From NCBI RefSeq assembly GCF_009712605.1, contig NZ_WASO01000003.1:238523-302522 (forward strand): a DNA stretch of 64,000 nucleotides, in the 5' to 3' direction. Positions 1 through 11,422 of the stretch are shown here, one piece after another. The position numbers and the translations under genes were made by a program. Source of the stretch: Paludibacter sp. (GTDB lineage: Bacteria > Bacteroidota > Bacteroidia > Bacteroidales > Paludibacteraceae). A model generated the notes under the pieces. That model saw only the letters and a list, made by a program, of their open reading frames with translations. It ran no database searches and had not been told where the DNA came from. How positions within the stretch are numbered: the first letter of the stretch is position 1; the number at the start of each line of letters is the position of its first letter.

Positions 1-778
1 ATAACCCGACTTGAGCTAGAGATCCTTTCTTTACAATGACGATATTGGTAATATTTATAACAAAGTATTCAATCAAAGAAGAAATGACTAGCATTATGCC
101 GAGTACAACCATAGGCTTTGCTTCCTTGATTGTTTCTCGTATTGATATTTTTACTGTAGATGTATTAACGGTTTTCTTTGTATAAAAAAAGTTCAAGGCA
201 AGAATACTTAAAGCATTTAAGGCTATAGTAACGGGTATTGCCTTGGCTCCCCAAAAATAAAACATTATTAATGAGATCAAAATATTCCCGATTGATGAAT
301 ACAAAGAAATTAAAGCAATATTCTTGATTGCCCTAAATCCTTTAAGACATGCATCATATCCTGTCGAGAGGATACTAAAGAAAACCGCAAAAGATATTAT
401 ACAAAAGCCAATTATGTAGTTATTGCTTCCAAACATTAATTTGCTAAGAGGGAATGAGCATATTAATGTTACAATTACACCAATTACAGCTAAATAGAGG
501 ACTAAATTTTGCGTAATTTTAGCTACTCTTATTTTACCAATTTTCTGATGTTCTTTAGCAATCTCCCTGATAGCACTTGAACCAATACCTAATCCAATGA
601 CACTACCTAACATTAACAAGATGTTGTTGTAGACTGCAGAAATCCCAACACCTGTAGGTCCAATAAGAATTGCTACAATCTTAGATTTAATCAGACCAGA
701 CAAAATGACCACAATCTGAGTACCTCCAAATACACCAGTCGATTTTAGGATTTCTTTATATTCATTTTTGCTAGTCAT
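1..778 (-). CDS. wzx: O-antigen/polysaccharide flippase, Wzx type (partial, 3' end outside window)
   Basis: The reverse frame opens at the ATG at 778 and stays open to the window edge, about 259 codons, so the C-terminal part is missing. The translation is very hydrophobic with at least six membrane segments separated by short basic loops. It begins MTSKNEYKEILKSTG and soon shows the sequence LIGPTGVGISAVYNN, typical of MATE/MOP-superfamily polysaccharide flippases. Such proteins move undecaprenyl-linked oligosaccharide units across the inner membrane. The start overlaps the stop of the GT10 gene by 4 bases (ATGA), so the two are probably translationally coupled. An amino-sugar-type O-antigen translocase (WzxE-like) is the closest description. 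The family call is firm; the substrate is unknown. Confidence 0.85.
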   Translation of the reverse strand, partial: MTSKNEYKEILKSTGVFGGTQIVVILSGLIKSKIVAILIGPTGVGISAVYNNILLMLGSVIGLGIGSSAIREIAKEHQKIGKIRVAKITQNLVLYLAVIGVIVTLICSFPLSKLMFGSNNYIIGFCIISFAVFFSILSTGYDACLKGFRAIKNIALISLYSSIGNILISLIMFYFWGAKAIPVTIALNALSILALNFFYTKKTVNTSTVKISIRETIKEAKPMVVLGIMLVISSLIEYFVINITNIVIVKKGSLAQVGL

Positions 779-1785
779 GGGTACATTAATCTGATAATCT
801 TTTGCTTTACACTATCCAATATGGAGAAATGAATCGGATTGAAATTTGAAAGCATTGTCTTTGATTCTGGATGTTTGATTTTATCAATACAAGAAATAAT
901 AATAGAGAAGGTATTATATTGATTTAATACTTTTAACTTTGCCTCGTTAAGAGAAGAAATTGAATCATGATACAAAGAGCTACCTAAAATTTCTTTGATC
1001 AGATTTAATGCGTATTGAAAGTTATTGATGTTAATTATCTTTATTTCGTTATCGGAAAAATAGTCCCCTATATTAGGGGCTCCATAATAGATAGGAAAAC
1101 TTCCAGCCAGATAAGTATCTGCTAATTTTTCAGTCCAATAATTAGGATATGAACAGTTTTCAATAACAATCGAATATTTGTATTTTGATTGAATAGTGAA
1201 CTTATCTGAAATATTAGTAAATCCATTGCCAAAAATATCCACTTTATCCGGTAATGCGTGCTTTAATTTTAAAGCAAAATCTACTCGATCTCGATGACCC
1301 TTAGTGATTTTTTTGTTTGATGTAATAATGCACACTTTATCTAGACGGTCCAGATTAGAGTAGCTTGAGAAATCATCATAATTCATATGTTTAGTGTTGC
1401 TAAACATATGTGAGTTTTCTTTGAGAGAACAACCTGTCATCCATGGTAAAGGAGGTATTGTAGAATAGGCATTGGATCTTTTAAGAATAGCCTTTTGACA
1501 AGTAAAAATGGAACCAAATTGATCTAAATATTTTGTTGGATATATTTTGATGTATGGCGGCTCTCCTGTAAATAATATCATCCTGTCTTTAGGATAATTT
1601 AATTCAATAGATTCTTTATAGTCATCTAAAACTACCAAGAAATCAAATTTATCTATATTTTGCTCAAATTCACTTGTGAATGTATTAATTTCGAAAATAT
1701 ACTTTTCCTTTACAGGCATTCCATTTTTACTAATTTGTCTATATAATGGATTATTTGAGGAGGTCAATATTAAAATATTTCTCAT
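775..1785 (-). CDS. Glycosyltransferase family 10 (alpha-1,3-fucosyltransferase-like)
   Basis: A 336-residue protein. Its C-terminal half carries the GT10 fucosyltransferase signature: IENCSYPNYWTEKL at about 208-221, followed by LAGSFPIYYG ending near 235, which corresponds to the family block FENS..DYVTEKL...G..PVYYG that binds GDP-fucose. The N-terminal half is divergent, as is usual for acceptor-binding domains. GT10 enzymes transfer L-fucose from GDP-fucose, and the GDP-fucose genes gmd and fcl lie 10 kb upstream on the same strand, which supports this donor. No signal peptide or membrane segment is seen, so it should act on the cytoplasmic side on lipid-linked intermediates. It lies 5 bases downstream of the GT2 gene and overlaps wzx by 4. 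Donor assignment is inferred. Confidence 0.8.
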   Translation of the reverse strand: MRNILILTSSNNPLYRQISKNGMPVKEKYIFEINTFTSEFEQNIDKFDFLVVLDDYKESIELNYPKDRMILFTGEPPYIKIYPTKYLDQFGSIFTCQKAILKRSNAYSTIPPLPWMTGCSLKENSHMFSNTKHMNYDDFSSYSNLDRLDKVCIITSNKKITKGHRDRVDFALKLKHALPDKVDIFGNGFTNISDKFTIQSKYKYSIVIENCSYPNYWTEKLADTYLAGSFPIYYGAPNIGDYFSDNEIKIININNFQYALNLIKEILGSSLYHDSISSLNEAKLKVLNQYNTFSIIISCIDKIKHPESKTMLSNFNPIHFSILDSVKQKIIRLMYP

Positions 1786-1790
1786 TAAGT

Positions 1791-2681
1791 CTATTTATTA
1801 TATAAATGTAGCATTCTAATGATATATTTAAGAAAAAAAGATGTTGGTGACAATGTAAATAACAAACGCAAAATTCTCAAGCTATATAAAGGAATAGAAT
1901 CTTTCTTATGACGACGAACAAGCTCGTTGTAGATGTTGAATACCCTAAGCCGAGTGATCCCTTTTTTATTCTCTTTTCCTGCAATACGCTTTAAATATTT
2001 AATTAGTGATAAATATTCGCAAAAATTATGATCTTGACTATCTTGTCCTTCATGAATTGTTATCTCCATTAAGGGATAAGGTATATGAACGACAAGTCCA
2101 TTTTGAGGTAACGAAACAATAAAAGAACAATCAGAATATTTGCCTCCATTTTTTTTCTCTATAAAATTAGTTAATAGATGTTTGTTATACATATAAGAAG
2201 CAAAAGCAGCGTTAGCTCCTCCAGAGGTGTATTTAGAAATAAGAGTAACAGGGGAATCTATTATTTCTTTGTTATTTGGTATTTTTGAGCTAATTTTTCT
2301 TCCATTCTTTATAGTATAAGCAAATCCACCAACAGCAACAATCTTATTATCTTCTTTTATTGTTTCATATAATTGTCCAACCATTTCAGGTAGCATGATG
2401 TCATCATCATGGAAAATAATATAATATTGGGTTTGTACTTCGTGGTGAATTGCGTTAATGTGATCAATGCCGGATTCAAAAGGTTGGCATCTTCTTATAT
2501 ATGTGAACCGGGGATCTTTTATATTATTATTTACTATAATATTCTGAACTTCATTTGTGGCTGAATTGTCTGAGACAATAAAGTTAAAATTTTGGAAAGT
2601 TTGATTAAAGATGGAATTTATAGAACGCATTATATATTGCGGCCGGTCTCTTGCCATTAAATATATGCTAACATTGGTCAT
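1791..2681 (-). CDS. Glycosyltransferase family 2
   Basis: A 296-residue GT-A-fold transferase. The N-terminus (VSIYLMARDRPQYIMRSINS) is the usual nucleotide-sugar-binding start of GT2 proteins. SDNSATNE at about 37-44 is the DNxS/T loop, and FHDDDIM at about 90-96 holds the metal-binding DxD. The C-terminal third is basic and lacks membrane segments. It probably adds one sugar of the repeat unit on the cytoplasmic face. Donor and acceptor cannot be read from the sequence. It follows the ThDP enzyme after a 101-base spacer that contains a hairpin, and is 5 bases from the next glycosyltransferase. Confidence 0.85.
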   Translation of the reverse strand: MTNVSIYLMARDRPQYIMRSINSIFNQTFQNFNFIVSDNSATNEVQNIIVNNNIKDPRFTYIRRCQPFESGIDHINAIHHEVQTQYYIIFHDDDIMLPEMVGQLYETIKEDNKIVAVGGFAYTIKNGRKISSKIPNNKEIIDSPVTLISKYTSGGANAAFASYMYNKHLLTNFIEKKNGGKYSDCSFIVSLPQNGLVVHIPYPLMEITIHEGQDSQDHNFCEYLSLIKYLKRIAGKENKKGITRLRVFNIYNELVRRHKKDSIPLYSLRILRLLFTLSPTSFFLKYIIRMLHLYNK

Positions 2682-2782: not shown

Positions 2783-4483
2783 TCAGAGATCATATTTAGG
2801 TTCCATTTCTGTTATGGAATTTCCAAACAACATTTTAGGATAAACATTAGTATGAATATCCAGAGAAACATCTAATAAAAAAGGTTGATCTGGTTTTCCC
2901 CACATTTTTAAAAGGGCCTCTTCTATTTGCTCTTCCTGATCAATTCGGATTGATTCAATTTCGTAAACATTCGCTAAAGCAGCAAAATCAGGGGCTGAAT
3001 ATCCCCATACCGTTGATTGATATGCACTGTCAAAATAACTATCCTGAAATTGTCGTATCATGCCCAAGCAATGATTGTTCAGTATCACGATTTTAATCGG
3101 GAGATTATTCCGGCGGATTGTTTGCAATTCCTGCACATTGATTTGAAAACCGCCATCTCCTGCAAAACAAACTACAGGAGCTTTACCTGACGCAATCGAT
3201 GACCCGATAGCTGCAGGGAGTGAATACCCCATAGCCCCCATTCCTCCAGAGCTTAGAAAAAGCTGATTGTTGGATAATGAGACAGATTGAGCTACCCACA
3301 TTTGGTTGCTACCTACATCGGCAGTAACCGCAACAGCCAATCGGGAGCAATGCGATATTGCACGAACCAATTTGTTAGGGTTTATACCTTTTATATTAGA
3401 TAGTTCAGCCGTATCAGGGCGTTCTTCTTTCTTTGCTTTAATCTCTGCAAACCAATAACTGAAATCAGTATCTGCAATATCACTATTCAAAAGCTGATTC
3501 AGAAAAGGCAAAATGTCAGCATGCAAAACCTGGCAATCGGAAATGCGGTTGTTTAGTTCTGCAGCATCAATATCAACATGGAATATTTTTTTCCCTGTTT
3601 TGAATGCTTGAATATCAGACCCAGTTTGGCGAAGATCAAGGCGACTGCCAATAACTAGGAGCAGATCACATGTGCCTAAAGCATAATTAGCCCATCTATT
3701 GCCATATGAGCCTATAAGTCCAATCCTACAGGGGTTGTTATCTGGAATGACATCAATTCCATTTAGGGAGGTTACAATCGGGATATTAAGCTTTTCTGCA
3801 ATTAAGTGTAATTCCTTAACAGCATTTGCTATTCTGATCCCTCTACCCGCTAGAACGAGAGGTCTTTTACTTTGCCGAAGTGAAGAGATATAGTCACTTA
3901 CAAAACTGAATAAATTATTTAAGTCCGGTTGTTGTACGGTTTCAGATAAATCCTTAAATTCATCACATTCTGCAATTTGAAGATTCATTGGAATGTCAAT
4001 AAGGACAGGTCCGGGTCTTCCTTCCAAGGATAAATCGTAGGCTTGTTGTAAAACAGCAGGGACTTCCTGAGCCGATTTGATCGCAAATGCAGCTTTGGTC
4101 AATGGTTTTACAACAGATACAATATCTGTTTCCTGAAAACCCAATTGTCTGACAGATTTATCTCCTTTTTGTTCATTCAGATTTACCTGTCCGGTGATGA
4201 AGATGGCCGGTACAGAGTCAAAATAACAGTTGCCGATCCCCGTGATTAGATTAGTAGCTCCGGGTCCACTGGTTGCTAATGCAACGCCTGGTTTGTTGGT
4301 TACCCGTGCATATGCGTCAGCAGCCATAGCAGCAGCTTGCTCATGATGCATTGTAATGATTTTAAACCCGTCATGACGGTACAATTCATCAATTATACGG
4401 GTAATCATTCCCCCTTGGAGCTCAAAAATAGTATCGATATTTTTACTTTTGAGGAAATGTGCAATATAAGAGGTAACTTTCAT
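2783..4483 (-). CDS. ThDP-dependent acetolactate-synthase-family enzyme, YerE-like
   Basis: A 566-residue three-domain ThDP enzyme. The catalytic glutamate is in MHHEQAAAMAADAYAR (E48), the central domain spans about 200-340, and the ThDP/Mg motif runs from GDG at 443-445 to NN at 470-471. True acetolactate synthase is unlikely. The gene sits in a CDP-dideoxysugar operon, has no ilvN-type small subunit or other ilv genes beside it, and overlaps the upstream SDR gene by 4 bases. YerE of Yersinia pseudotuberculosis has this fold and transfers a two-carbon unit from pyruvate to C4 of a CDP-3,6-dideoxy-4-keto-hexose. The same role fits here because RfbF, RfbG, RfbH and an E3 reductase are all upstream. 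The fold is certain; the YerE role is inferred from context. Confidence 0.75.
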   Translation of the reverse strand: MKVTSYIAHFLKSKNIDTIFELQGGMITRIIDELYRHDGFKIITMHHEQAAAMAADAYARVTNKPGVALATSGPGATNLITGIGNCYFDSVPAIFITGQVNLNEQKGDKSVRQLGFQETDIVSVVKPLTKAAFAIKSAQEVPAVLQQAYDLSLEGRPGPVLIDIPMNLQIAECDEFKDLSETVQQPDLNNLFSFVSDYISSLRQSKRPLVLAGRGIRIANAVKELHLIAEKLNIPIVTSLNGIDVIPDNNPCRIGLIGSYGNRWANYALGTCDLLLVIGSRLDLRQTGSDIQAFKTGKKIFHVDIDAAELNNRISDCQVLHADILPFLNQLLNSDIADTDFSYWFAEIKAKKEERPDTAELSNIKGINPNKLVRAISHCSRLAVAVTADVGSNQMWVAQSVSLSNNQLFLSSGGMGAMGYSLPAAIGSSIASGKAPVVCFAGDGGFQINVQELQTIRRNNLPIKIVILNNHCLGMIRQFQDSYFDSAYQSTVWGYSAPDFAALANVYEIESIRIDQEEQIEEALLKMWGKPDQPFLLDVSLDIHTNVYPKMLFGNSITEMEPKYDL

Positions 4484-5400
4484 AGAAGTCTTTCTTTGTG
4501 ATGTTTTATTGTACGATTTAATCCCTCATTTAATCCTATCTTAGTTGAAATCGGAAAATTTTTTTTGAACTTTGTGTTATCCCCGGCGATCAACATATTT
4601 TGTCCTTCTCTATAGGGTATTGCCCCAAATTCAAGAAATTGCTCAGGTACACCCATGAATTCTGTTATTGTACGAAGCAATTGTTGCAATGATACGGATT
4701 TGGAATCACAGATATTGTAGACTCCGGATTTATTCTCAATGCTATCAATAATACCCAATAGTTGACTTGTGAAGTCTTTGATATAAAGGTAGTTGTATTG
4801 TTGTTCGCATTTAGTTAACTGTATTGATCTATTGTTTAATAGTTTTGAAATAACAGTTGGTATGAGCCAATTAGAGTTCTCAAATTCTCCAAATACAGAG
4901 AAAACACGAACCCAATACCAAGCTATCTCAGTCTTTTCAAAAATATTTCTCATATAATGAGCTGTCATAGTTTTTACCGCTCCGTAGGCATCATCCGGTT
5001 TGGGTGATGTTTCCTCGTTCACAGCAAATCCTTGCGAACCATATTCTGCCTGGGAGCCAAAAGCAATGACTTTTTTAATATCACATGTTTTGACCAGATC
5101 GAACAGCTCCTTTGAAAACCAAAAATTGTTTATCTGAAGCTCCCAGTCGTTACGATCCTTAGCACCAACTCCACCCCAAGCTGTATGTATCAATTGCTTT
5201 GGATTTAATTCTTGTATTTTATACTTCCAGTCTGGAGCATCACTATTTACCCAAGTGATTTTATTTTTGATATCAGCACATTTTTCAAATGAAGAACTGT
5301 TTCTGTATATGGCACATACCATATAATTTCTATCTAATAATTCTCTTGCAATATTAGAACCAATAAAACCGGTAGCACCTGTAATCAAAATCATTCCCAC
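4480..5400 (-). CDS. NAD(P)-dependent SDR reductase/epimerase of the sugar pathway
   Basis: A 306-residue extended short-chain dehydrogenase. The Rossmann motif GATGFIG is at 8-14, the catalytic Y139-x3-K143 is in AYGAVK, and FGSQAEYG supplies the upstream serine region. This type includes RfbJ/Prt/Tyv-like reductases and YerF, which reduce the 4-keto or side-chain keto group of CDP-dideoxysugars. Because it lies between the E3 gene (10-base overlap) and the YerE-like gene (4-base overlap), reduction of a branched-chain keto sugar is the most economical role. It could instead be a C4 ketoreductase giving abequose or paratose directly. A second in-frame ATG two codons in (5394) is an alternative start. 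Confidence 0.75.
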   Translation of the reverse strand: MGMILITGATGFIGSNIARELLDRNYMVCAIYRNSSSFEKCADIKNKITWVNSDAPDWKYKIQELNPKQLIHTAWGGVGAKDRNDWELQINNFWFSKELFDLVKTCDIKKVIAFGSQAEYGSQGFAVNEETSPKPDDAYGAVKTMTAHYMRNIFEKTEIAWYWVRVFSVFGEFENSNWLIPTVISKLLNNRSIQLTKCEQQYNYLYIKDFTSQLLGIIDSIENKSGVYNICDSKSVSLQQLLRTITEFMGVPEQFLEFGAIPYREGQNMLIAGDNTKFKKNFPISTKIGLNEGLNRTIKHHKERLL

Positions 5401-6080
5401 TCATCCGTTAAAATGTTTGTTTTTGGAATGCCATATTTTATTAGGCATTGCTTAAAAATTTTTATCATTGCTGGTGGTCCCGAAATGAAGAATGCATTTG
5501 TAACATCGGATTCCATTGCTATTTTTTCAATATTAAGTATTCCTTTTTTATCTTCATAAATGCAATGAGTTATCAAGGACGAATTAATTGATTGAGCATA
5601 TTTTAATTCTTCTTGATATAAATTCAATGCGCCGGAACGAAATCCCGCATAGAGCACAGGCCTTGAATATTCTGAAAATGACGAATCGGTAAAGAGAGAC
5701 AAAAAAGGAGTTATACCGGTTCCTCCGGAAATAAAGACTGTATTCTCTTTGCGATGCTCCTGTTCAAACAGGTCCCCATAAGGCATCTTGACCCACACTT
5801 CGCTTCCTTCCTGTATTTTTTCTCTCATTTGGCTTGTAAAGGCGCCTTTTACGGAATAAGTAATTTTTAGTGAGCCGAAGTCGTCCGGAGATGTCTGGAT
5901 ACTGAAACAGCGAGATTCCGGCCATTGGCTTACACCATCATAATCGCTATCGATGGATAGATGGAGAAATTGTCCTGGAGCAAAGCGAAATTTTCCGGTG
6001 ATAGGTTCTATCGTTAACGTATAGACGCCTTCAACCGGATTTTCAATTTTCCGTATGATTGATTTGTATTTCTTTACCAT
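5391..6080 (-). CDS. FAD/NAD(P)H ferredoxin-reductase-type E3 (CDP-6-deoxy-glucoseen reductase-like) lacking a 2Fe-2S domain
   Basis: A 229-residue ferredoxin-NADP reductase-fold protein. The FAD-binding domain has RCFSIQTSP at 57-65 (the RxYS motif), then the NAD(P)-binding motif GGTGITP at 119-125, a late ISGPPAMI block, and an acidic-aromatic C-terminus. In Yersinia and Salmonella the E3 enzyme (AscD/DdhD) carries an extra N-terminal plant-type 2Fe-2S domain and is about 100 residues longer. No such cysteine cluster exists here: the protein starts directly with the FAD domain. It is expected to feed electrons from NADH to RfbH. The start at 6080 is preceded by the operon's repeat element. 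Function is inferred mainly from position in the operon. Confidence 0.75.
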   Translation of the reverse strand: MVKKYKSIIRKIENPVEGVYTLTIEPITGKFRFAPGQFLHLSIDSDYDGVSQWPESRCFSIQTSPDDFGSLKITYSVKGAFTSQMREKIQEGSEVWVKMPYGDLFEQEHRKENTVFISGGTGITPFLSLFTDSSFSEYSRPVLYAGFRSGALNLYQEELKYAQSINSSLITHCIYEDKKGILNIEKIAMESDVTNAFFISGPPAMIKIFKQCLIKYGIPKTNILTDEWE

Positions 6081-6084
6081 AATT

Positions 6085-6245
6085 TGTGTGGTTCACTAAG
6101 TCCCTCCAAGTTTTCACCAAGTCTCGCTAAGTTTTTGTTTTACTTTGTGATGTACTTCGTGCTACTTTGTGGAATAATTTTTTGTTTCACTAAGTCACTC
6201 AAAGGATCCGCCAAGTTTCACTAAGTTTTTGTGTTACTTTGAGAC
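6085..6245. repeat. CACAAAG/CTTAGTGAA repeat, about two units
   Basis: The stretch is built from repeated words ttcactaag, ttcaccaag, actttgtg and acttcgtg. Read on the minus strand, each unit begins with CCACAAAGTAGCACGAAG and ends with CTTAGTGAA, so its two halves are partly complementary and could fold as a hairpin. Nearly the whole space between the GxxExxY gene and the E3 gene is filled by two such units. The same family fills the other spacers of this operon. Confidence 0.75.
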
Positions 6246-6250
6246 ATTAA

Positions 6251-6622
6251 TCAAAGTACTAATCGTTTAATTCCGTTCTTCAATGATTTGACGTAAAAAT
6301 TAATCAATAATCCCAGATGACTTCCTGACAATTTCATATACGTCAAAGTTTGTGCAATATGCACATCCGTAAAACATTCAACGGTTTTCAGCTCCACAAC
6401 TACCTTCGATTCAATTAATAGATCAATGCGGTAGCCGCAATCCATCTTAATCTCTTCGTAAATGAGTGGCAACGCTCGTTCTTCTTCAACCTTTAATCCG
6501 GCTTTCCGTAATTCAAAGGCTAAACATGTCCTATATGCACTTTCCAAAAGACCTGGACCTAATGCGGTATGCACCTTGAAGGCACAGTCGAGAATTATTT
6601 TGCTTATCTGGTCTTCTGTCAT
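6251..6622 (-). CDS. GxxExxY family protein
   Basis: A 123-residue protein from the ATG at 6622. The signature GPGLLESAY (GxxLExxY) is near the N-terminus, followed by YRIDLLIESKVVVELK, which matches the D...E-x-K pattern of PD-(D/E)XK-like folds. The family is widespread in Bacteroidota but has no established function. The frame is open 13 codons further upstream to 6661, but those codons are translated repeat sequence, so 6622 is preferred. The gene interrupts the sugar operon between rfbH and its redox partner and is bracketed by the CACAAAG/CTTAGTGAA repeat on both sides, which suggests it arrived together with that repeat. It is unlikely to take part in sugar synthesis. Confidence 0.85.
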   Translation of the reverse strand: MTEDQISKIILDCAFKVHTALGPGLLESAYRTCLAFELRKAGLKVEEERALPLIYEEIKMDCGYRIDLLIESKVVVELKTVECFTDVHIAQTLTYMKLSGSHLGLLINFYVKSLKNGIKRLVL

Positions 6623-6624
6623 AA

Positions 6625-6692
6625 ATTTCGATTCCACTAAGTTCCTCCAAGGATTCACCAAGTATCACTACGTCGCCGTGCTACTTTGTGTA
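6625..6692. repeat. CACAAAG/CTTAGTGAA repeat, overlapping the rfbH stop codon
   Basis: Plus-strand words ccactaag, ttcaccaag and gctactttgtg mark another unit. On the minus strand ACACAAAGTAGCACG encodes the last two residues and the stop of rfbH, so the repeat extends into the end of that coding region. The other end abuts the start of the GxxExxY gene. Confidence 0.7.
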
Positions 6693-8000
6693 ACTGCCAA
6701 CAAATTGATCCAACATTTGTTCTGCATACATGAACATGCCTTCCTGCAATCCGGGATAAGTGCCTAAGAAGAAAGTATGGTTCATGATAAAGTCGGTTGT
6801 ATTCAGATTGTCTGCAATACGGTGCGCTTTATTCATAAAAGCTGGTTGTTTGGTCATATTTCCGGCAAACAGATTCCTGGTTTCTATTTTATTTTGAGCC
6901 AGATAGCGGGTCAGTTCATCACGGGTGAACGGTGCACCTTCTTTGACAGTCACGATAAAGGCAAACCATGCAGGATCAGCACCTTCGGTAGCTTCAGGCA
7001 AGGTGAAGAATTGCGGATATTTAGAAAAAATACGTGTCCACGTTTTGAAATTTTCTTTCCTTTTTTCACAGAAAGAAGGTAGTTTGTCCATTTGAGCGCT
7101 ACCGATAGCAGCTTGTATATCCGTCATCTTAAGATTATATCCGACCTCAGAATAAACATATTTATGGTCGTAGCCAAGCGGTAAATTACCAAATTGCTGA
7201 GTAAAACGTTTACCACAGGTGTTATTTTCACCTCCCACACAGTAGCAATCACGTCCCCAGTCACGGAAAGCACGAACCAATTTTGCCAGTTTGGGGTCGT
7301 TTGTACAGATTGCGCCGCCTTCACCGGTTGTGATATGGTGAGCCGGGTAGAAAGATATAGTAGATATATGTCCGAAAGTACCGGTATATTTTCCTTTGTA
7401 TTTGCTGCCGAATGCATCACAGTTGTCTTCAATCACCCATAAGTCGTGTTTATTGGCCACTTCCATTATAGCATCCAGATTGTAGGGATTTCCCAGAGTG
7501 TGAGCCAAAAAAATGCAACGGGTTTTAGGAGAAATTGCTTTTTCGAGTTGAGCAACATTGATATTATACGTAGGAATTTCCACATCCACATATACCGGAA
7601 TCAAACCATACTGAATAATTGGAGTGACAGTAGCCGGAAAACCGGCAGCAACGGCGATCACTTCATCTCCGGCTTTCAATCGTTTATCTCCCAGCTTTTC
7701 AGAAGTAAGAGCTGAAAAGGCTAATAGGTTGGCGGAAGATCCTGAATTGGTGAGCATTACATGTTTTATTCCAAGGAAATCAGAAATTTTCTCTGCGAAA
7801 TCAGAAGAATAGCGTGATTCTGTTAACCAAAAATCAAGAGAAGAATCAACGGCATTAATTATTTCCTGTTCATCAAATACCCGACCTGCATAGTTAACGG
7901 GAGACTTTCCGGAAATAAATTCCTTGGTTCCAAACTGAATCTTATAGTACTCTTTTACCTTTTCAATAATCTCTGAACGAAGTTGTTTACTGTCTGACAT
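6681..8000 (-). CDS. rfbH: CDP-4-keto-6-deoxy-D-glucose 3-dehydrase (E1)
   Basis: A PMP- and iron-sulfur-dependent enzyme that removes the C3 hydroxyl of CDP-6-deoxy-4-keto-glucose, acting with the E3 reductase. It has the DegT/DnrJ aminotransferase fold, but the PLP lysine is replaced: SFYPAHHITTGEGG has histidine where aminotransferases have lysine. The [2Fe-2S] ligand pattern C-x57-C-x1-C-x7-C is exact (NCDAFG, then DCYCVGGENNTC), as in the Yersinia E1 enzyme. These residues indicate an active dehydrase. The frame is open to 8087 and overlaps rfbG. The ATG at 8000 gives 439 residues, close to the family's usual length. An ATG at 8033, directly after the repeat, is the alternative. The last codons lie in a repeat. 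Confidence 0.92.
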   Translation of the reverse strand: MSDSKQLRSEIIEKVKEYYKIQFGTKEFISGKSPVNYAGRVFDEQEIINAVDSSLDFWLTESRYSSDFAEKISDFLGIKHVMLTNSGSSANLLAFSALTSEKLGDKRLKAGDEVIAVAAGFPATVTPIIQYGLIPVYVDVEIPTYNINVAQLEKAISPKTRCIFLAHTLGNPYNLDAIMEVANKHDLWVIEDNCDAFGSKYKGKYTGTFGHISTISFYPAHHITTGEGGAICTNDPKLAKLVRAFRDWGRDCYCVGGENNTCGKRFTQQFGNLPLGYDHKYVYSEVGYNLKMTDIQAAIGSAQMDKLPSFCEKRKENFKTWTRIFSKYPQFFTLPEATEGADPAWFAFIVTVKEGAPFTRDELTRYLAQNKIETRNLFAGNMTKQPAFMNKAHRIADNLNTTDFIMNHTFFLGTYPGLQEGMFMYAEQMLDQFVGSYTK

Positions 8001-8033
8001 ATTATATGATTTTCTAAAATTATTATTGTTCAT

Positions 8034-8083
8034 GTCACAAAGGCTCTCAATGTTTTCTTTGTGATACTTAGTGAAATGGGGTT
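8034..8083. repeat. CACAAAG/CTTAGTGAA repeat between rfbG and rfbH
   Basis: On the minus strand it reads CCATTTCACTAAGTATCACA, then further words ending CCTTTGTGAC just before an ATG. The rfbG stop codon TAA is inside TTTCACTAAG, so this copy provides the end of rfbG. Confidence 0.7.
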
Positions 8084-9153
8084 TCAATATATTGTTCGAT
8101 TTGTTTTTCGGTTATTTTACGAATGTCTTCCTTATTCAGATAAGCCTTATTCCATTCCACGATACTTTTGAGGGTAGTTTCAATATCCCATTTCGGATAC
8201 CAGCCCAATTCAGCTTTTGCTTTGGAGCAATCCAGTTTCAGGTAGTTGGCTTCATGTGGCTGCGGGGTCGTGTCGATTTCGTAACCGGCATTATCACCCC
8301 AGAATTTGCAGAGGGTCGATGTAATCCATTCCACATTCTTTGCATCTTTATCTTCGGGTCCAAAATTCCATCCTTCGGCAAATTTTGAGCCTTCAGCGAA
8401 CAACTTTGCAGTCAGCGTAAGATAGCCGGTAAGAGGCTCCAATACATGTTGCCAAGGGCGGATTGCATAAGGGCTGCGAATTTTGATGATCTCTCCATTT
8501 ACTATAGAACGTATAAAATCGGGAATCAGCCGGTCTACCGCCCAGTCACCGCCACCAATGACATTGCCCGCTCGGGCTGAAGCCAAGGCTACGCCATGGT
8601 CTGCATACTTTGCAGGATTGAAATAGGAATTGCGGTAAGCCGATGTTACTAATTCGGAACAACCTTTACTGTTGGAATAAGGATCATAGCCTCCCATAGC
8701 TTCATTTTCACGGTATCCCCAGTGCCATTCCCGGTTTTCATAACATTTGTCAGTTGTTACGTTGACAATAACCTTGATGCCCGGAGTCAGTCGGCATGCT
8801 TCCAGTAAATTGACAGTGCCCATCACATTGATGGCATAGGTGTCGACCGGAATTTTATACGATTCACGAACCAAAGGCTGAGCTGCCATGTGGATAACAA
8901 TTTCCGGACGAACCTGATGTACAAACCGGGATAAATGATCCAAATCCCTTATGTCGCCGATTTCGGAGGTAATCAGTTCTGCAACTTTAGCTTCCTGAAA
9001 AAGGCTTGGACGGGTAGGCGGCTCTAAAGCATAGCCATACACATCTGCTCCAAGTTTATTGAGGAGTAGGCATAACCATGAACCTTTGAATCCGGTATGT
9101 CCGGTAATCAATACCTTACGGTTTTTATAAACTGAATTGAATAAATTTTCCAT
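8068..9153 (-). CDS. rfbG: CDP-glucose 4,6-dehydratase
   Basis: A 361-residue extended SDR enzyme that converts CDP-glucose to CDP-4-keto-6-deoxyglucose in the cytoplasm. GHTGFKGSW at 18-26 is the Rossmann motif with the characteristic FKGSW of the RfbG family. VTTDKCYEN at about 131-139 and the Y158-x3-K162 pair in YSNSK are the catalytic parts. It is full length. It stands between rfbF and rfbH, the standard order for CDP-dideoxysugar synthesis. Its start codon at 9153 and its stop codon both lie within arms of the dispersed repeat: a 13-base motif CCATTTCACTAAG occurs in opposite orientations at each end. Confidence 0.95.
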   Translation of the reverse strand: MENLFNSVYKNRKVLITGHTGFKGSWLCLLLNKLGADVYGYALEPPTRPSLFQEAKVAELITSEIGDIRDLDHLSRFVHQVRPEIVIHMAAQPLVRESYKIPVDTYAINVMGTVNLLEACRLTPGIKVIVNVTTDKCYENREWHWGYRENEAMGGYDPYSNSKGCSELVTSAYRNSYFNPAKYADHGVALASARAGNVIGGGDWAVDRLIPDFIRSIVNGEIIKIRSPYAIRPWQHVLEPLTGYLTLTAKLFAEGSKFAEGWNFGPEDKDAKNVEWITSTLCKFWGDNAGYEIDTTPQPHEANYLKLDCSKAKAELGWYPKWDIETTLKSIVEWNKAYLNKEDIRKITEKQIEQYIETPFH

Positions 9154-9246
9154 TTCACTAAGCTTCTCAAAGGGTTCACAAAGTTATTCAAATAAACCTT
9201 CGTGTGACTTTGTGTGTGTTAACATTGTGCTCCTTTGTGGTATAAT
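9150..9246. repeat. CACAAAG/CTTAGTGAA repeat between rfbF and rfbG
   Basis: This is a near-complete unit. Minus strand: ACCACAAAGGAGCACAATG, then CACACAAAGTCACACGAAGG, an AT-rich centre, then CTTTGTGAACCCTTTGAG and CTTAGTGAA directly before the rfbG ATG. The two halves are partly complementary (CACAAAG with CTTTGTG). Confidence 0.75.
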
Positions 9247-9250
9247 CAAT

Positions 9251-10024
9251 TTACCATTTGATCCAGGGAGCTGTACCCATTTCAACCATCTCACTTAATT
9301 CTGTTTTATCGCGAAGCGTATCCATCGGCTTCCAGAACCCACTATGTTTATAGGTTACTAATTGTTTGTCTTTTGCCAGATTTTCGAGCGGTTCCCGTTC
9401 AAAGAAGGTGGAATCACCGCCTTGAATGTAGTCGAAAACTTCAGGTTGGCACATAAAGAAACCCGCATTGATCCAGCTCCCGTCTCCTTTGGGCTTCTCT
9501 TTGAAAGAGAGAATATTATTGTTTTCATCAATCAACAAAGAACCAAAACGTCCGGCAGGCTGTACGGAAGTCATCGTTATTAATTTTCCGTGTTGTTTAT
9601 GATAATCCACTAACGTATTGATATTAATATCGCAAACACCATCGCCATAGGTAAGCATAAACGGCTCATTCCCGACGTATTCCTGAACCCTTTTAATACG
9701 CCCACCTGTCATGGTGTTTAATCCGGTGTCGATAAGAGTTACTTTCCACGGCTCTGCATGATTTTTATGGTAGCAAATCGTATTTGTCGACATATCTATA
9801 GTAAGATCCGAACGATGGCGATAGTAATTGGCAAAATACTCTTTGATAACATATCCCTTGTATCCGCACATAATGATGAATTCATTAAATCCATAGTACG
9901 AATAGATTTTCATAATATGCCACAAAATAGGACGTCCTCCTATTTCAACCATTGGTTTAGGCTTTAAAGATGTTTCTTCAGAGAGCCGCGAACCAAGTCC
10001 ACCAGCAAGGATAAGTATTTTCAT
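9251..10024 (-). CDS. rfbF: Glucose-1-phosphate cytidylyltransferase
   Basis: A 257-residue nucleotidyltransferase making CDP-glucose from CTP and glucose-1-phosphate. The N-terminal AGGLGSRLSEETSLKPKP (about 7-24) is the nucleotide-binding signature with SLKPKPM typical of RfbF rather than RmlA or GalU. MLTYGDGVCDIN carries the metal-binding aspartate, and NAGFFMCQPEVFDYI and the WKPMDTLRD end are family blocks. It is the first gene of the operon, preceded by a long leader with a promoter near 10472-10501. It commits glucose to the CDP-dideoxysugar route. Confidence 0.95.
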   Translation of the reverse strand: MKILILAGGLGSRLSEETSLKPKPMVEIGGRPILWHIMKIYSYYGFNEFIIMCGYKGYVIKEYFANYYRHRSDLTIDMSTNTICYHKNHAEPWKVTLIDTGLNTMTGGRIKRVQEYVGNEPFMLTYGDGVCDININTLVDYHKQHGKLITMTSVQPAGRFGSLLIDENNNILSFKEKPKGDGSWINAGFFMCQPEVFDYIQGGDSTFFEREPLENLAKDKQLVTYKHSGFWKPMDTLRDKTELSEMVEMGTAPWIKW

Positions 10025-10550
10025 TATTAAATAATTTATCTTTTATTTATCAAACATAATTATGTGTTATTGAAAAATATTTTTATTCACGTTGATGTTA
10101 TTGAGCAGTGTTTTTTGCGTAAAAAAACGGATTGCTTCAAAAAAGCATTATTTTTCAATAAATGGCAGGTTGATTATCAATGGTGTCGGCAGGATAACCA
10201 AGATGCCCGGAAACAACACGTTTACCGATTTCCTTTTCTATTATAAAAAAGGATAAAGATAAACCGTACACATAAAATAGGGAAAGATTAATTTATACAG
10301 GCTTAGCTAATCAGTCAGATTTGCTTTGTCCTGTATTAAGAATTTTTTTCTGTACTTCCCTTGCGTTATAAATTGGTCTTGGTTAGTGGCACAAAAGGGA
10401 TGAGACTGTTCTCAGGATTGTAAACTGTTTTCGGTTTATCTATGGACAGCAGTCCCTCTGATTTTGGTGTGCAAATTTACGGATTTGTTTTGGTTGCACA
10501 AGCAATAAATGGAGATTTTAACTGAAAGAAAAATGAAGCGAAGGTGAGAT
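10025..10550. other. Non-coding leader region upstream of rfbF
   Basis: No convincing gene is seen here. The part from about 10465 to 10025 would be the untranslated leader of the rfb operon. On the minus strand it contains a small hairpin (TGCTT ... AAGCA) followed within a few bases by a run of seven T near 10120-10150, which resembles a weak attenuator. Short open frames on the plus strand show no family features. Confidence 0.4.
10472..10501 (-). promoter_or_regulatory. Candidate promoter of the rfb operon
   Basis: On the minus strand TTG (10501-10499), a 19-base spacer and TAAATTTG (10479-10472) match the Bacteroidota -33/-7 consensus. Transcription would start near 10465 and give a leader of about 440 bases before rfbF. 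Confidence 0.5.
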
Positions 10551-11422
10551 CTAATGGTTAATTGTTAATGATAAATGGTAAATGAGTGAGAAACGAGGAC
10601 GGCGGGCAAGAGACAGGTAACCATTAAGGCCGATAAGAGGCTCTTAAATATCTTCATTTCTTAATGGTAAAATTTATAGGCACGAATTGCACAAATGAAT
10701 TCAGATTGCCAGGGCTATGCTTCTTAATCGGAGGTTAACCGCAAAGAACGCGGAGAATATGCAAAGCGTACAAAGATATGATTTAATTCAGATGCAGGGC
10801 TAAGGTGTCGATGCTAGGCCTGGTTCAATAAGAGCCGCCGATTTAATCCCCTCTTAATGGTATGATAGATTAATTTCTCTTTGTGATCCTGGTGGCATCT
10901 TTGTGTACTTCGTGGTAAAATCAGATTAACCACAAAGAGTACAAAGGACATTCACAAAGAAACACCAAGTTTAATCCGGAGGGAAGATGTGCCGATTAAA
11001 CATTCTTCTGGTAGAGAATAATAGACACGAATAGCATGAATTAATCCTGATTGTCACGACTATGCCGTCAGGAAGTAGTAGCAGGTCTACTTCCTTAAAC
11101 CGTTTTTTTTGTTTCGTATTTTGTTTCCCGATAGAATGTACTTTTGCGTCCATGCGAACCATGGAGGGATAGGGTATTGGTGCGATTTGGAATTAACTTC
11201 TTTCAGTCGTTGAACAATGTTTCGCACGACCCGAAAGACCTACTCTTGGGTGATGCGAGCTCCGACTCGCATTGTATTGCAGATATTTATAGACACAAAT
11301 AGCACGGATTGGTAAAACAATTCGTGCTATTTTTCGAGTATCACTTGAAGCGAGAAGTTATTAACCGTAAACTTGGCCTCAGGCTCATTGGCCATTAACA
11401 ATTAATCATTAACCATTAACCA
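10551..11422. repeat. Repeat-rich intergenic spacer
   Basis: No gene is recognised. The spacer is a patchwork of short dispersed repeats: (1) TTAA-rich words such as ggttaattgttaatgat at 10556-10572 and taaccattaaccattatt near 11410; (2) two related blocks at about 10676-10722 and 11028-11072 with the order cacgaa..gca..aatt...gattg..a..gctatgc; (3) CACAAAG-type inverted repeats at 10880-10970, where ctttgtgtacttcgtggt faces accacaaagagtacaaag; (4) a hairpin ATGCGAG/CTCGCAT near 11258-11275 and another, AGCACG..ATTG/CAAT..CGTGCT followed by five T, ending near 11336. Confidence 0.6.

Follow-up and report, generated by a model that had tools for sequence, protein, structure and literature searches.

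In the cytidine diphosphate (CDP)-yersiniose pathway of Yersinia pseudotuberculosis, the genes are named Ddh, YerE and YerF. According to the review PMC12247030, the substrate of YpYerE, an enzyme that depends on thiamine diphosphate (ThDP), is CDP-3,6-dideoxy-4-keto-D-glucose, with pyruvate as the preferred donor; longer donors are taken by ErwE, for which pyruvate does not serve, and by JanthE. The review also mentions that more than 200 YerE-like enzymes have been listed in silico (Krug 2024), so that YerE-like membership is in itself not news. For the preceding deoxygenation, PMC8987622 describes how reduced nicotinamide adenine dinucleotide (NADH) gives electrons to the flavin adenine dinucleotide (FAD) of E3, the next transfer being between two iron-sulfur clusters, one in E3 and one in E1. 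Here we describe an operon in a 64,000-nucleotide stretch of a Paludibacter sp. genome (contig NZ_WASO01000003.1, hereafter the window), whose probable product is a CDP-activated 3,6-dideoxyhexose, branched at C4 and destined for a Wzx-type surface polysaccharide. We judge the pathway to be YerE-like, of a known kind, its variant part being a conserved reductase that lacks the 2Fe-2S domain Fer2.

RfbF, RfbG, RfbH, a short-chain dehydrogenase/reductase (SDR) and an acetohydroxyacid synthase (AHAS)-like ThDP enzyme, which the initial annotation had grouped in one operon, are all found together on the minus strand of the window:

9251..10024, minus strand, RfbF, glucose-1-phosphate cytidylyltransferase (TIGR02623, 407.8 bits against a cut-off of 300.25)
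8068..9153, minus strand, RfbG, CDP-glucose 4,6-dehydratase (TIGR02622, 503.8 bits against a cut-off of 278.45)
6681..8087, minus strand, RfbH or E1, CDP-4-keto-6-deoxyglucose 3-dehydrase of the pyridoxamine phosphate and [2Fe-2S] type (NF011936, 687.6 bits against a cut-off of 423; motif; 3bcx)
6251..6661, minus strand, GxxExxY protein of the PD-(D/E)XK superfamily (TIGR04256, PF13366), with a doubtful role in the pathway
5391..6080, minus strand, short FAD/NAD(P)H reductase that has no 2Fe-2S domain and is proposed to supply RfbH with electrons in place of E3 (no Fer2; fold of the ferredoxin-NADP reductase (FNR) type; place at RfbH)
4480..5400, minus strand, SDR, proposed branch ketoreductase in a YerF-like role (PF01370; motifs GATGFIG and YGAVK; 4-bp overlap with the ThDP gene)
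2783..4483, minus strand, YerE-like ThDP enzyme, proposed to transfer an acetyl unit from pyruvate to C4 of CDP-4-keto-3,6-dideoxyglucose (trees, residues, 5ahk top by sequence and fold)

Hence, the upstream genes for CDP-4-keto-3,6-dideoxyglucose (RfbF, RfbG and RfbH) are linked to the ThDP gene. As in the Y. pseudotuberculosis CDP-yersiniose/PpYerE (5ahk) system, they share a polysaccharide operon with an SDR and a 5ahk-side ThDP enzyme; unlike that system, the reductase is a short FAD/NAD enzyme without 2Fe-2S, and the host belongs to Bacteroidota. From this gene content we infer the following reactions. RfbF and RfbG would provide CDP-4-keto-6-deoxyglucose, from which RfbH would remove O3 with electrons coming from the short flavin reductase. 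The YerE-like enzyme would then decarboxylate pyruvate and add the acetyl unit at the C4 ketone, the SDR would reduce the acetyl to a hydroxyethyl group (yersiniose A or B), and a neighbouring glycosyltransferase would build the branched sugar in.

RfbH contains the motif C-x57-C-x-C-x7-C exactly, starting at residue 223, and a His at the place of the pyridoxal phosphate-binding Lys (SFYPAHH). Both features had been read by the initial annotation, and they place the protein in the E1/RfbH family. Its best PDB match is the E1 3-dehydrase 3bcx (515 bits), which we take to be the Yersinia enzyme. The full four-Cys motif is present in 19 of 23 RfbH rows, the misses being two fragments (L025, L029), L042 and L056. 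The listed start codon is TTG; because many homologues are 433-441 residues long, an inner ATG is likely the true start.

The ThDP enzyme is made of domains PF02776, PF00205 and PF02775. Its best PDB match by sequence is 5ahk (420 bits; the next match, a plant AHAS, reaches 316), and its modelled fold also appears nearest to 5ahk, then to JanthE (8rph). The 5ahk entry is titled acetohydroxy acid synthase Pf5, from Pseudomonas protegens. Judged from sequence, it is very likely PpYerE, because V479, as numbered in the part of PMC12247030 considered, falls on the Val of the GMV motif if the 20 leading residues are a tag. In a first tree of 40 rows, rooted on E. coli Gcl, 27 YerE-like rows (the window, 22 locus sequences, 5ahk, JanthE and two JanthE-like sequences) are separated from 12 AHAS rows with a support of 100/99. 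The same split was recovered at 100/99 in a second tree of 45 rows, with ten sequences added and fewer AHAS. The window enzyme, 5ahk and 20 others form one group (97/93 in the second tree, 93/84 in the first), so that the kinship to YerE put forward by the initial annotation is borne out by phylogeny as well as by sequence and fold matches. A position within IlvB, which the initial annotation had named as refuting, was not obtained. The AHAS rows hold together only at 49/10 in the first tree and 86/92 in the second, and long branches are seen in one tree or the other for Gcl, JanthE, IlvI and a few others. L045 (partial) and L039 (ThDP gene in two frames) were left out of both trees; among the 19 AHAS loci L006-L024, for which only long forward frames were kept, eight entered the first tree and three of these the second. 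Structure alignment A1 comprised 19 sequences.

Donor-pocket residues were compared using the numbering of E. coli AHAS II, via Kosakonia IlvG. The window enzyme keeps E47 (E48), F109 (F116), Q110 (Q117), R276 (R285) and V375 (V390), and replaces K159 by M166, M250 by S259, H251 by Y260 and W464 by F479. The four replacements match 5ahk, except for S259, where 5ahk has A. All 22 rows of the 5ahk side have F at position 109, and 21 of them have V at position 375, where L042 has I. The JanthE branch, with ErwE by description, shares the ThDP subclass and, in many loci, the upstream RfbFGH genes; it differs at both positions, neither letter being found in any of the 13 JanthE-clade rows. F109 and V375 of AHAS have been tied to specificity for pyruvate as donor, according to the title of Steinmetz 2010 as cited in PMC5727371. 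Because these two residues are kept and YpYerE prefers pyruvate, a two-carbon branch from pyruvate is our best prediction. The yersiniose-like sugar with two carbons from pyruvate envisaged by the initial annotation is thus reasonable as to the donor favoured by these residues, its product chemistry being predicted.

Of 20 SDR-type proteins compared, those flanking YerE-like genes are the closest to the window SDR. With an SDR from a Methylovirgula RfbFGH cluster it shares 33% identity; that cluster encodes a transketolase pair, which is another type of branching enzyme. Its identity is 21-24% to the SDRs of four clusters or genes without a branching enzyme, and 22% to Salmonella abequose synthase. 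In the close set, consisting of 16 Bacteroidota loci (L025-L040) with a ThDP enzyme 59-70% identical to that of the window, an SDR relative (at least 39% identical) stops no more than 10 bp from the beginning of the ThDP gene in 12 loci, eight of which show a 4-bp overlap.

The reductase is 229 residues long. Pfam identifies an NAD domain and FAD-type matches only below threshold, and the same profile is found for the reductases of L026, L027, L028 and L040. No Fer2 match was found in the window reductase by Pfam at E values up to 0.05, and the controls (Salmonella, Sphingomonas and two Bacteroidota) were positive; the reductases of these four loci likewise gave no Fer2 match. In the structure model (predicted local distance difference test, pLDDT, 90.7), the protein would adopt an FNR-type fold nearest to the SpNOX dehydrogenase domain. 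Salmonella E3 likewise has FAD and NAD(P)H domains and is encoded in an RfbFGH cluster, but it possesses an N-terminal Fer2, also found in the Sphingomonas homologue; Fer2 is C-terminal in L054 and L055. Of the E3-like reductase read by the initial annotation, the flavin reductase in the operon stands and the defining 2Fe-2S domain of textbook E3 falls away. The short reductase looks like a [2Fe-2S]-free substitute for E3.

A survey of 395 Bacteroidota genomes yielded 30 RfbH places in 29 genomes, 14 of which correspond to family f43. With a window-kind reductase defined as a match at E < 1e-80, such an enzyme occurs at RfbH in all five places where RfbH is at least 68% identical to that of the window and in none of the 25 others. 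It directly adjoins RfbH in four of the five; in the window the GxxExxY gene lies between. Four of the 25 other places are near a Fer2-bearing reductase (two by Pfam, two by cysteine-spacing pattern); in the remaining 21, BLAST against the reference set named no reductase in the stretch, where other kinds are possible. A second table covered 16 of 21 ThDP-relative loci, those with RfbH on the stretch (L031, L038, L039, L041 and L045 are without): the window-kind reductase accompanies RfbH in 11 of 11 loci at or above the same identity and in none of five below it. Pooled, the counts at or near RfbH are 16 of 16 loci at least 68% identical and 0 of 30 others. The distance between RfbH and the reductase is about 2.2 kb in L029; L025, L029 and L033 each have a fragment in place of one of these two genes. 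L027 has a 231-residue reductase beside a 55% identical RfbH, which is also without Fer2 but only 25-26% identical, and no reductase was recognised in L035. Among the five sampled genomes with the short reductase, an abequose-synthase-like SDR is present in three, for which no ThDP enzyme is listed up to six genes away, and a JanthE-like enzyme in one. The reductase tracks the RfbH lineage, not the branching or ketoreductase genes, and therefore fits the E3 step.

We give an even chance to the idea that this Bacteroidota RfbH lineage swapped textbook E3 for a dedicated flavin reductase, free of [2Fe-2S], by which the E1 cluster would be reduced directly, C3-deoxygenation then proceeding with one iron-sulfur cluster and not two. 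SpnQ offers a parallel, being an E1-type enzyme served by another reductase; according to the portion of PMC8987622 considered, it uses ferredoxin or flavodoxin and their reductases, not E3, whereas the window reductase is a dedicated operon gene. A stand-alone plant-type ferredoxin was rejected as the missing module. The genome (97.84% complete) holds one Fer2 match at E <= 0.001, located in a 589-residue frame that reads like what we take to be an iron hydrogenase, so that a plant-type ferredoxin go-between is unlikely; this search was aimed at Fer2, not at flavodoxins or other ferredoxin types. The idea of a small ferredoxin encoded upstream of RfbF was rejected as well: the open reading frames (ORFs) there reach 63 residues and none is ferredoxin-like by eye. 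Among the literature matches listed on yersiniose in Bacteroidota, glucoseen reductase and RfbH, judged mostly from their entries, no description of this operon or of a Fer2-less E3 was recognised.

The short reductase would be a simpler partner for E1. In PMC7851689, recombinant E1 and E3 from Y. pseudotuberculosis and S. Typhi are reported to have been inactive in combination, and a dysfunctional iron-sulfur cluster was suspected; for this reason, a cluster-free partner might ease rebuilding of the E1 step. From the operon, one can also predict that a surface polysaccharide of Bacteroidota carries a branched sugar, whose donor is proposed on the basis of residues.

In the close set, RfbH is on the fetched stretch (10 kb each side) in 13 of 16 loci. 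The contigs of L031 and L039, which have no RfbH, begin inside or just before the reductase; in L029 and L030, RfbH is several kb off with other genes between. L037 has the order of the window: Gmd, Fcl, the operon, then GT2 and GT10 glycosyltransferases. In Mangrovibacterium lignilyticum (L040), RfbF, RfbG, RfbH, the short reductase, the SDR and the ThDP gene also follow one another as they do in the window. Four of the 395 genomes have a ThDP match at E <= 1e-120: one is the own genome, two reach 52%, and the fourth, at 42%, falls with 5ahk in the first tree. More generally, 19 of the 30 RfbH places have a ThDP enzyme no more than six genes away, of the decarboxylase type in 14 (including G358, a doubtful long-branch row) and as transketolase-type pairs in five, which is why branched sugars may be a common fate of the RfbH pathway in Bacteroidota. 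The other 11 places have RmlC-type (5), abequose-synthase-like (4) or other (2) genes. In plasmid records, all 1607 matches to the ThDP query were below 60%, and the best 40 of the 1607 were at most 37.3% identical; none was taken as YerE.

Three other readings of the operon were weighed. An enzyme that is YerE-like but uses a longer or hydroxylated 2-keto acid, as ErwE does, would give an erwiniose-like longer branch. The donor ranges of ErwE and JanthE (PMC12247030, in part) and the occurrence of JanthE-type enzymes in RfbFGH operons speak for it; we consider it unlikely, since F116 and V390 follow the near-invariant pattern of their own side and not that of the JanthE clade, in an alignment without ErwE, and no aldolase is seen among the operon genes. 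Alternatively, the SDR could be a 4-ketoreductase leading to an unbranched CDP-3,6-dideoxyhexose of the abequose or paratose type, the ThDP enzyme having another role or being vestigial. Such an arrangement has a precedent in the four sampled places where an abequose-synthase-like SDR follows RfbH. It is less probable still, given the low identity of the SDR to abequose synthase, its closeness to SDRs flanking YerE-like genes, its recurrent pairing with the ThDP gene, and the intact state of the latter, an open 566-residue frame that keeps E48 and the GDG aspartate. Finally, an extra AHAS for branched-chain amino acids, although suggested by the best NCBIfam model (TIGR00118, 487.7 bits), is highly improbable: the score is under the cut-off of 538.35, the enzyme is outside AHAS in both trees, and K159, M250 and W464 of AHAS are replaced. 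In addition, the genome has a separate AHAS on contig C11, 36-37% identical to the window enzyme, placed among Bacteroidota AHAS in the first tree and next to an IlvD-like gene (by eye); the only match to the small-subunit model TIGR00119 in the genome directly follows it. The absence of ilv partners from the operon, noted by the initial annotation, is weak alone and gained weight because this genome-wide search pointed elsewhere. An AHAS isozyme was thus rejected on the trees, the TIGR00118 cut-off and the small subunit lying elsewhere, and, on sequence grounds, the ThDP enzyme is not a biosynthetic AHAS large subunit.

Several observations weigh against the branched, pyruvate-derived sugar that we favour. 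The reductase is without the defining domain of textbook E3. The ThDP enzyme has an AHAS model as its best family match, and identities of 39% to 5ahk and 37% to IlvG separate the two poorly. R285 is kept, corresponding to what we take to be the acceptor-carboxylate arginine of AHAS; 5ahk keeps it too. Retention of F109 and V375 may be ancestral, because it is shared with AHAS and with L043 and L044, which lie, though weakly (86/69), on the JanthE side. In the AlphaFold model (pLDDT 83.4), active-site loops 110-117 and 478-491 are under 50, and for this reason no pocket claim rests on it. The trees were anchored on JanthE and on 5ahk, PpYerE by inference, with YpYerE and ErwE outside the sequences compared; YerF of Y. 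pseudotuberculosis was likewise outside the SDR set. L038 has no RfbH though 10 kb on each side were covered, and no such SDR was found beside the ThDP genes of L036 and L038. The role of the SDR has no tested model in the papers considered, ketoreduction of yersiniose being described as uncharacterised in 2016 in the part of PMC4753412 considered.

Some relatives of the ThDP enzyme occur in other settings. L043 and L044, contigs labelled Micrarchaeota for which a binning error is possible, have YerE-like enzymes with RfbH, and L043 has a YerE-like and a JanthE-like enzyme together. In a polysaccharide cluster (L069:10219-12111, G376), a JanthE homologue (60%) is directly followed by genes for acetaldehyde dehydrogenase (TIGR03215) and 4-hydroxy-2-oxovalerate aldolase (TIGR03217), both over the cut-off. 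As JanthE is reported to accept 4-hydroxy-2-oxovalerate (PMC12188165, in part), this cluster may make its own donor. Two further JanthE-type clusters (L073:12105-13971 and L074:973-1755) both contain HpcH/HpaI-type aldolases, hinting at hydroxylated keto-acid donors; an AroB-related phospholyase is also present in L073.

The glycosyltransferases and flippase reported in the operon by the initial annotation were recovered as two glycosyltransferases and an open-ended flippase piece:

1791..2681, minus strand, GT2 glycosyltransferase, candidate transferase of the branched sugar (PF00535; 31% homologue directly after the ThDP gene in L037)
775..1785, minus strand, GT10 (fucosyltransferase-type) glycosyltransferase (PF00852)
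2..778, minus strand, start of a Wzx-type flippase that runs off the window (open frame; the remainder, in L053, matches PF13440)

To the left of the operon, the flippase is accompanied by an O-antigen-ligase-like membrane protein, glycosyltransferases and a WecG-type transferase, together with an initiating sugar transferase (PF02397), an SLBB export protein and Wzz. To the right are a Fcl relative (422 bits, under the cut-off of 500) and a frame read as Gmd by eye. The RfbF-Fcl gap (window 10025-11422) is 1.4 kb long, with no ORF above 63 residues and repeat-like stretches by eye. Promoter-like and terminator-like sites showed no excess over the shuffled level. In several loci, nuclease-like GxxExxY genes are again seen immediately behind RfbH or ahead of the reductase (window 6251-6661; L028:7888-8292; L029:637-1080; L030:3511-3885; L039:2-277). 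Left of the window, L053:3-2009 encodes a GmhA-like protein (by eye), a GHMP kinase (Pfam) and a nucleotidyltransferase (weak RfbF match), which suggests a GDP-heptose pathway near the same locus.

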